Assembly: GCF_026151205.1 (NCBI RefSeq)
Contig: NC_087075.1
Span: 1,297,911-1,361,910 of the forward strand
Length of the DNA stretch: 64,000 bases
Direction of reading: 5' to 3'
Source of the DNA: Bolinopsis microptera
Taxonomy: Eukaryota > Ctenophora > Tentaculata > Lobata > Bolinopsidae
The notes under the pieces were generated by a model, which was given only the letters and a program-made list of their open reading frames with translations, did not search any database and had not been told where the DNA came from. Below are positions 18,843 to 61,619 of this stretch, in pieces. Position numbers and translations under genes: made by a program. Within the stretch, counting starts at the first letter, position 1. The number at the start of each line of letters is the position of its first letter.

Positions 18843-20583
18843 TACCTGGGTCCAGAACTCCTACGAGACTCTAGTGAGAACACTGAGGGAGCTGAACACG
18901 AGGTGTCCCCTGTCTAACAGGAAGAGTGCTGCTCTACAGAGCCTGCTCTTACAGTTCCTCGCTCAGAGGGACAGACTTAATGGTAACTTAACCTCACCAC
19001 TCTTAACCTCACAACCCTTACAACCTCACAACCCTTAACCTCACAACCCTTAACCTTACAACCCTTAACCTCACAACCCTTAACCTCACAACCCTTAACC
19101 TCACAACCCTTAACCTTAAAACCCTTAACCTTACAACCCTTAACCTCACAACCCTTAACCTTACAACCCTTAACCTCACAACCCTTAACCTCACAACCCT
19201 TAACCTTACAACCCTTAACCTCACAACCCTTAACCTCACAACCCTTAACCTTACAACCCTTAACCTTACAACCCTTAACCTCACAACCCTTAACCTCACA
19301 ACCCTTAACCTCACAACCCTTAACCTTACAACCCTTAACCTTACAACCCTTAACCTTACAACCCTTAACCTCACAACCCTTAACCTTACAACCCTTAACC
19401 TTACAACCCTTAACCTCACAACCCTTAACCTCACAACCCTTAACCTCACAACCCTTAACCTCACAACCCTTAACCTTACAACCCTTAACCTCACAACCCT
19501 TAACCTCACAACCCTTAACCTTACAACCCTTAACCTTACAACCCTTAACCTCACAACCCTTAACCTCACAACCCTTAACCTTACAACCCTTAACCTCACA
19601 ACCCTTAACCTCACAACCCTTAACCTTACAACCCTTAACCTTACAACCCTTAACCTCACAACCCTTAACCTCACAACCCTTAACCTCACAACCCTTAACC
19701 TTACAACCCTTAACCTTACAACCCTTAACCTCACAACCCTTAACCTCACAACCCTTAACCTCACAACCCTTAACCTTACAACCCTTAACCTTACAACCCT
19801 TAACCTTACAACCCTTAACCTTACAACCCTTAACCTTACAACCCTTAACCTTACAACCCTTAACCTTACAACCCTTAACCTTACAACCCTTAACCTTACA
19901 ACCCTTAACCTTACAACCCTTAACCTCACAACCCTTAACCTAATAACCCTTAACCTCACAACCCTTAACCTTACAACCCTTAACCTTAAAACCCTTAACC
20001 TCACAACCCTTAACCTCACAATCCTTAACCTCACAACCCTTACAACCTCACAACCCTTAACCTCACAACCCTTAACCTCACAACCCTTAACCTCACAACC
20101 CTTAACCTCACAACCCTTACAACCTCACTACCATTTCATAACTAAAGGATTGTATAACTAGCAATCATATTCCGTGTATTATAGTAAATCACTAAAAATT
20201 CTATCTTTTCAAGATTGCAACAGAAGCCTAGATGTAATTGTAAACTACAGAAAAGAATCTTTAAATAACTTCCACCTCACTTCCTCTGTAACCTAAAATA
20301 ACCTAAAGTAACCTCTGTAACCTAAAGTAACCTAAAGTAACCTAAAGTAACCTAAAGTAACCTCTGTAACCTAAAATAACCTTAAGTAACCTCTGTAACC
20401 TCTGTAACCTAAAATAACCTCTGTCTCCAGCTCTACGAACAGTTGAAGTACTCTCCCCGACCTCGTTTGCTGTGTTGGCAGTCCCCAAGTTCACTATCTC
20501 CCCTCAGCTGGGTAGGTTCGACTGGCTGAGTTCCATGTTACCTGCCAATATCAACAAGTCCTCTCCACGCATCGATATCACAG
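18843..20583 (+). CDS. dynein exons 1-2: end of linker
   Basis: Exons 18843-18982 and 20431-20583. The first opens with one base of a split codon and reads TWVQNSYETLVRTLRELN. The join (G|CT) continues into FAVLAVPKFTISPQLG and RFDWLSSML. The FDWLSSM block corresponds to the dFeWlsqLR motif at the linker-AAA1 border of dynein heavy chains. More 5' exons must exist because the first exon starts mid-codon, but none is visible upstream. Confidence 0.75.

Positions 20584-61619: not shown

Follow-up and report, generated by a model that had tools for sequence, protein, structure and literature searches.

In a predicted, divergent dynein heavy chain gene of Bolinopsis microptera, the splice site in use lies inside the unit of a tandem array at eight of 66 sites (five acceptors and three donors, in eight of the 33 introns), and between 1 and 206 spare copies of each such junction stand in the adjoining intron. 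The explanation that we favour, with a probability of about three in four, is that these arrays are minisatellites of the type called 'mirages' in amphioxus, i.e. duplications that are seeded at random, are tolerated where they fall on an exon border and carry spare sites that the spliceosome ignores.

The dynein gene and its arrays

The window, that is the whole stretch of DNA analysed (64,000 nucleotides), lies at C4:1297911-1361910 in a genome of 264,652,675 bases and 232 contigs. Exon borders of the dynein gene (Table 1) were predicted from the reading frame and GT-AG alone, with the first of the exons found in the window (18843-18982) numbered 1, as in the initial annotation. All 33 introns have GT-AG borders in the resulting model, with frame-keeping alternative sites chosen for the donors of exons 6, 15, 19 and 22 and for the acceptor of exon 32, which by reading frame falls at 59233/59234, within the second 46-base copy of its duplication. 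Searching with database dyneins as queries (tblastn) gave no match before 18843 in the window.

Along the gene, Pfam matches above cut-off were found in the order DYN_lid, AAA_8, MT stalk, Dynein_heavy and Dynein_C, the regions matched being the C-terminal region, D6, the stalk and AAA4; a match to AAA_9 was weak and under the cut-off. A search of the protein database gave 312 matches, and the 120 listed have dynein domains, with an identity of about 20-25%. Judged from its translation, the gene is a divergent dynein heavy chain. The frame is open across all exon joins and is broken by three single-base slips, which fall within two long exons. Two of them are in exon 47962-49633, where the sequences of two relatives of 96% identity stay open throughout, so these two slips belong to the present sequence and not to the gene family; the three slips may mean that the present copy of the gene is damaged. 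Around D6 in some other dyneins of the genome, open frames of about 2500-3700 aa were seen (C1:6094768, C3:8960379 and C4:10076515), so that exon sizes vary greatly among the dyneins of this genome.

Arrays found by TRF occupy 26,424 of the 33,648 intron bases (78.5%) and 126 of the 9,129 exon bases (1.4%). None of the 33 arrays is wholly exonic, as against a rough figure of 28 if seeds were evenly spread. When each array was collapsed to one unit the introns still kept other sequence, with a median length of 170 bp over the 33 introns. The density of 78.5% compares with 24.1% of the intron bases at four other dynein loci (65 introns). The arrays cover 44% of the upstream 18.8 kb of the window; 7.1%, 5.4%, 0.7% and 23.8% of four 50-kb dynein stretches, the third of them being 58% masked; and 3.0-55.9%, with a mean of 15.8%, of five 10-kb stretches chosen blind to content. 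Random seeding by itself is insufficient as an explanation of the high array density in this gene. On C5, near 15,007,020 (7020-7523 of its stretch), a 33-bp array reads on the minus strand as 11-residue repeats with one stop near the end, and may be a coding minisatellite.

Other features of the window are also given in Table 1. The second of the Ly6/uPAR-like proteins has a weak Pfam match, under the cut-off, and three database relatives of 46-77% identity, all of them unnamed ENA proteins. The insert in intron 2 is flanked on either side by GTCGTGCC, has GTCATTAATG tandem repeats close to its two ends, and looks like a non-autonomous DNA transposon. The 20-bp array at 16186-18131 may lie within the intron that precedes the first exon found.

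Table 1. Features of the window and the partial second copy (positions are those of the window unless a contig is named)
Feature	Position	Strand	Details
Two Ly6/uPAR-like proteins, small, secreted, probably GPI-anchored	280-1068, 14414-15166	-	similar-looking; upstream of the dynein exons
20-bp array, 96 units	16186-18131		unit has GTAAAA and ACAG
Divergent dynein heavy chain gene, 3' part	18843..61619	+	34 exons (9129 bp), 33 introns (33648 bp)
15-bp array, 76 units	18987..20132	+	intron 1; splice site outside unit
Transposon-like insert	~20846-22490		intron 2; inverted ends GGGGGGTATGCAACGACC / GGTCGTTGCATACCCCCC
19-bp array	22993..23402	+	intron 4; begins 12 bases past exon 4 donor, donor outside
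29-bp array, ~220 units	23497..29974	+	ends in, and includes, exon 5 acceptor (29972)
40-bp array, 2.4 units	30857..30949	+	stops 3 bases short of exon 7; acceptor outside unit
44-bp units plus (TAAC)n	31224..31386	+	unit has exon 8 acceptor (31362) and ~24 exon bases; 2 spare copies
75-bp array, 57 units	32144..36382	+	exon 11 acceptor (36349) and ~34 exon bases; 54 spare acceptors
6-bp array	37320..37529	+	begins 6 bases past exon 14 donor, donor outside unit
32-bp array, 159 units	38162..43255	+	each unit starts with exon 16 donor (after 38161); 158 spare donors
39-bp array, 37 units	44878..46322	+	exon 21 acceptor (46317) and 6 exon bases; 36 spare acceptors
7-bp array, 117 units	46840..47674	+	intron 21; unit without splice site
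Frame slips, single-base	48704, ~49390, ~51625	+	in exons 47962-49633 and 50870-52233
53-bp duplication, 2 units	52215..52321	+	spans exon 26 donor (after 52233), 19 exon bases; 1 spare copy
44-bp array, 57 units	53622..56130	+	exon 29 donor (after 53662) and last 41 exon bases; 55 spare donors
35-bp array, 64 units	56662..58896	+	ends 1 base before last base of intron 30; units without AG
46-bp duplication, 2 units	59164..59256	+	spans exon 32 acceptor (59234), 23 exon bases; 1 spare copy
Second copy, partial, inverted (exons 5-7 and flanking arrays)	C4 ~1210215-1218283		adjoins inverted exon-5 array

Splice sites inside repeat units

Junction copies were counted within the intron concerned, an acceptor being represented by 16 intron and 3 exon bases and a donor by 3 exon and 10 intron bases, with up to 2 mismatches. 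Both types of boundary are duplicated: the acceptors of exons 5, 8, 11, 21 and 32, and the donors of exons 16, 26 and 29. At five of the 66 sites, namely the acceptors of exons 8, 11 and 32 and the donors of exons 26 and 29, the intron also holds a copy of the exon edge itself, taken as the 30 terminal bases, an edge being scored as copied when it exceeded 100 of 100 Markov-shuffled edges; the units at these five exons hold copies of 19 to 41 coding bases. The most abundant junction is the acceptor of exon 5, with 206 copies in its own intron, 204 of which keep the AG; its array also contains a short inverted block (23770-23916). Uniformity differs from array to array: 155 of the 159 units at exon 16 equal the consensus, and many variant units are present at exon 21.

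The initial annotation had named eight sites as lying within a repeat. Seven of them (exons 5, 8, 11, 21, 32, 26 and 29) do so and one, the acceptor of exon 7, does not; similarly, of the arrays described there as beginning at the donors of exons 4, 14 and 16, the last holds its donor even inside the unit and the other two start 12 and 6 bases off. Its range of copy numbers, from 2 to about 220, was borne out at 2 to about 210. Its picture of duplicated borders with an intact exon-proximal copy agrees with the junction copies at the eight sites and with the reading frame, and the spliceosome does face, as it stated, many near-identical sites (up to 206 copies), from which the reading frame needs the exon-proximal one.

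The coding cost of the other copies was obtained by extending each exon to every spare copy with its AG or GT preserved (297 acceptors and 214 donors). A stop codon was met within the extension in 510 of 511 cases, and the one remaining copy, at exon 26, shifts the frame. The spare copies therefore cannot be much used if protein is made, and the reading frame demands the exon-proximal copy at the junction-bearing arrays. The distances are considerable. Intron 10 has its first spare acceptor at 127 nt from the donor, a usual intron length in this gene, and the frame-keeping acceptor at 4309 nt; the corresponding figures are 78 and 1488 nt in intron 20, and 544 and 6991 nt, the latter for the acceptor used, in intron 4. 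Spare and used sites are nearly alike in sequence, so site strength hardly explains the choice. The most likely explanation, as judged from the sequence, is recognition across the exon, for which the exon-proximal copy alone would have a partner at exon distance.

A different use of the spare sites would be nested or recursive splicing, which would take an array out stepwise. In introns 10 and 20, i.e. two of the five array acceptors, the acceptor directly precedes GT (CAG/GTACTA and CAG/GTTTGA, the slash marking the junction), so that each unit could regenerate a donor, and 54 and 36 acceptor copies are available, the introns being 4.3 and 1.5 kb long. An AG/GT junction is equally what a plain exon beginning with GT provides, however, the donor halves GTACTA and GTTTGA look poor, and the other three array acceptors have no following GT. 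Nor is the motif significantly enriched, CAGGT occurring 2 times in the units against 0.51 expected (P 0.093). Use of the spare sites in this way is thus highly improbable. The stronger proposal, that the introns with CAG/GT arrays are excised in many recursive steps, each unit serving as acceptor and renewed donor, with array length setting the time or yield of splicing, is more doubtful still; if it were true, the length of a minisatellite would govern the splicing time or the yield of a dynein transcript.

Placement of the arrays and origin of the units

The number of covered sites was compared with a null in which every array was collapsed to one unit and dropped at random on its own intron plus edges. 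The chance that a unit of 30-75 bp covers a splice site of a collapsed intron is about 0.1 to 0.6. Against the 8 covered sites observed, the expectation was 7.3-7.6 for the first sets (all 33 arrays, the 26 with a period of at least 10, and 22), 6.42 for 20 arrays with a unit of at least 10 bp and 6.29 when the exon overhang was held to at most 41 bases. For 25 hand-merged arrays it was 6.56, with a 95% range of 3-11 and a probability of 0.31 for at least 8; over the array sets this probability lay between 0.26 and 0.51. The hand-merged set is the 33 arrays minus eight rows (four in the transposon-like insert of intron 2, two pieces of the 29-bp array, a nested 9-bp and a nested 4-bp array), with the array of intron 25 taken as 30 bp and not 137 bp.

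The same test was run on 65 introns of the four other dynein loci, each intron backed by at least three database proteins; the dynein stretch on C11 is N over 29,100 of its 50,000 bases. These loci have 23 arrays in 14 of the 65 introns, and 3 covered splice sites were observed where 2.97 were expected. Two of the three lie within the TRF bounds and the third was recognised by its junction copies (25). They comprise an exact two-copy duplication of 49 bp over a donor, with 27 exon bases included, an older duplication of 51 bp over an acceptor, and the acceptor with which a long array ends. As they fall in two other dynein loci, the phenomenon extends beyond one gene. The exact 49-bp duplication looks like the first step of array growth.

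The initial annotation had proposed that duplication is anchored at the borders, which would be the case if AG or GT microhomology, R-loops or chromatin at the borders favoured its start. Eight covered introns out of 33 in a single gene, and units that copy 19-41 exon bases at five of the eight sites, would fit such a cause. The placement test has low power, in that any count from 3 to 11 passes, and the counts slightly exceed expectation (8 against about 6.6, and 3 against about 3.0). Random placement nevertheless fits the counts in the dynein gene and in the four other loci. The splice motifs CAGGT, AGGT, CTAAC and GTRAG were not significantly enriched over dinucleotide shuffles in the 22 units of the dynein gene and 24 units upstream, the lowest P of 24 tests being 0.093. 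Anchoring is unlikely, and as a necessary cause it was rejected on the placement counts and the motif test; a moderate bias of duplications towards the borders may exist. Array-splice-site overlap at chance level had been named beforehand as the result that would tell against anchoring, and overlap at chance level (8 covered sites against 6.3-7.6 by random placement) is what the survey, run on dynein genes only, found. Since the number of covered sites fits the random expectation, the pattern can do without anchoring, provided that a duplication across a border does no more harm than one within the intron. It is the arrays themselves that exceed chance; the number of splice sites that they cover does not.

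Five of the eight junction-bearing units (exons 5, 11, 16, 21 and 29) were searched for in the unmasked genome with up to 3 mismatches. All matches of four of them lie inside the window (159/159 for exon 16, 56/56 for exon 11, 55/55 for exon 29 and 35/35 for exon 21). A dispersed origin of the units was rejected, since four of the five searched are confined to their own intron. The exon-5 unit has 303 matches in the genome, 200 inside the window and 103 outside, and the outside matches listed (100 of the 103) belong without exception to an inverted array about 103 kb off, at C4:1211715-1218283, so that an origin of this unit in situ is uncertain.

The second copy of exons 5-7 beside that array is partial, as the units of exons 11, 16, 21 and 29 have no match outside the window. 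It differs at 7 of 338 exon bases, all of the differences synonymous, and its splice sites are intact. The 40-bp array before exon 7 has one extra unit in it, 3 spare junctions of exon 8 are seen against 2 in the window, the (TAAC) runs at the exon 8 array reach up to 29 against 11, and about 220 bp present in intron 5 of the window are missing. It may be a partial duplication or paralogue, or else the assembly may have misplaced part of an allele here. By this comparison, splice-junction arrays vary in length while the predicted coding sequence is kept.

Such a misplaced allele piece would also be in keeping with an assembly artefact, in which the assembler inflated array length or repeats, and so would the frame slips in two exons and the identity of 155 of the 159 exon-16 units. 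The units differ between introns, however, many variants occur in the exon-21 array, the two-copy cases are simple and three sites at two other dynein loci are alike; an artefact is therefore very unlikely.

Mirages and the probable growth of splice-site arrays

The favoured explanation, random seeding of tolerated duplications in a region prone to minisatellites, would work as follows. Short tandem duplications would form readily, at any position in the genome, and would enlarge through slippage or unequal exchange. In ordinary short introns, such as those of this gene after collapse, chance alone would place about a quarter of duplications over a splice site. A duplication of this type would keep one whole exon edge with its site, the spare copies being shifted into the intron; because one complete exon edge is retained, it would be neutral for as long as the exon-proximal copy stays in use. 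Duplications within exons would alter the protein and presumably be removed. The spare copies would be ignored by way of exon definition, with only the last acceptor or first donor having a partner at exon distance.

The initial annotation knew of no described gene with this pattern on such a scale; lancelet genes do show the pattern. Amphioxus 'mirage' minisatellites are known from Adh3, the globins BflGb6 and BflGb9, TnC and PGBD5 (PMC3087553, PMC3902484); in the excerpts of these papers they are tandem repeats that include exon-intron boundaries, both donors and acceptors, and many of their units keep AG or GT. For the globin mirages RT-PCR is described there as suggesting regular splicing, the mirage of BflGb6 as having two haplotypes of 6 and 3 units of 150-160 bp and that of BflGb9 as having one duplicate, and a part in intron gain is proposed (PMC3087553). 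PMC3902484 cites the mirages of Adh and TnC as giving no aberrant mRNAs and suggests as much for that of PGBD5. On the excerpted text the dynein arrays are alike in spanning donors and acceptors at exon-intron boundaries. They differ in scale, mirages having 3 and 6 units where numbers are given and the dynein gene up to 206 spare copies and eight sites in a single gene, and in evidence, splicing and polymorphism having been tested for mirages whereas in the dynein gene splicing is inferred from the reading frame alone. No comparable copy numbers and no random-placement test were found in the excerpts of the open-licence PMC literature. As far as this comparison reaches, the dynein arrays belong to the mirage kind, and their scale, the genome in which they occur and the test of their placement are what is new.

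A minisatellite with multiple splice donors was reportedly described by Turri, Cuin and Porter (NAR 1995) in the human interferon-induced gene 6-16, which we take to be G1P3/IFI6. Going by that title, it supplies splice donors to the transcript, whereas use of the spare copies in the dynein gene would truncate the protein. The junction arrays also differ from ordinary intronic minisatellites, which lack the splice site, as 17 of the 25 hand-merged arrays of this gene do.

Arrays could also have created the introns, through tandem duplication of AGGT as in the Rogers model. This has been described for other genes (PMC3087553, PMC4974935), among them a potato RdRp gene with an intron that, in the excerpt seen, arose from a duplication over an intron-exon boundary (Rogers 1989 model; PMC4974935), and the exon-29 unit contains both GAG/GTTAGT and TTTAG. 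Tandem duplication is common to the potato and dynein cases, with a new intron as the outcome in the former and enlarged existing introns in the latter. Against creation by arrays, all 33 collapsed introns were considered and they hold other sequence (median 170 bp), and intron 29 extends some 270 bp past its array to an unrelated acceptor, which leaves this origin with hardly any probability. At the start of exon 23, where there is no array, the frame of a relative of 62% identity reads as if the acceptor were conserved.

Random seeding with tolerance at the borders would explain simply, by neutral processes and in quantitative terms, how minisatellites acquire splice sites, and it would extend a pattern of lancelets to another genome. 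The five introns that present 36 to about 206 near-identical sites in a row would be a natural test of splice-site choice, and as only the exon-proximal site makes coding sense in them, they may inform the question of exon definition versus intron definition.
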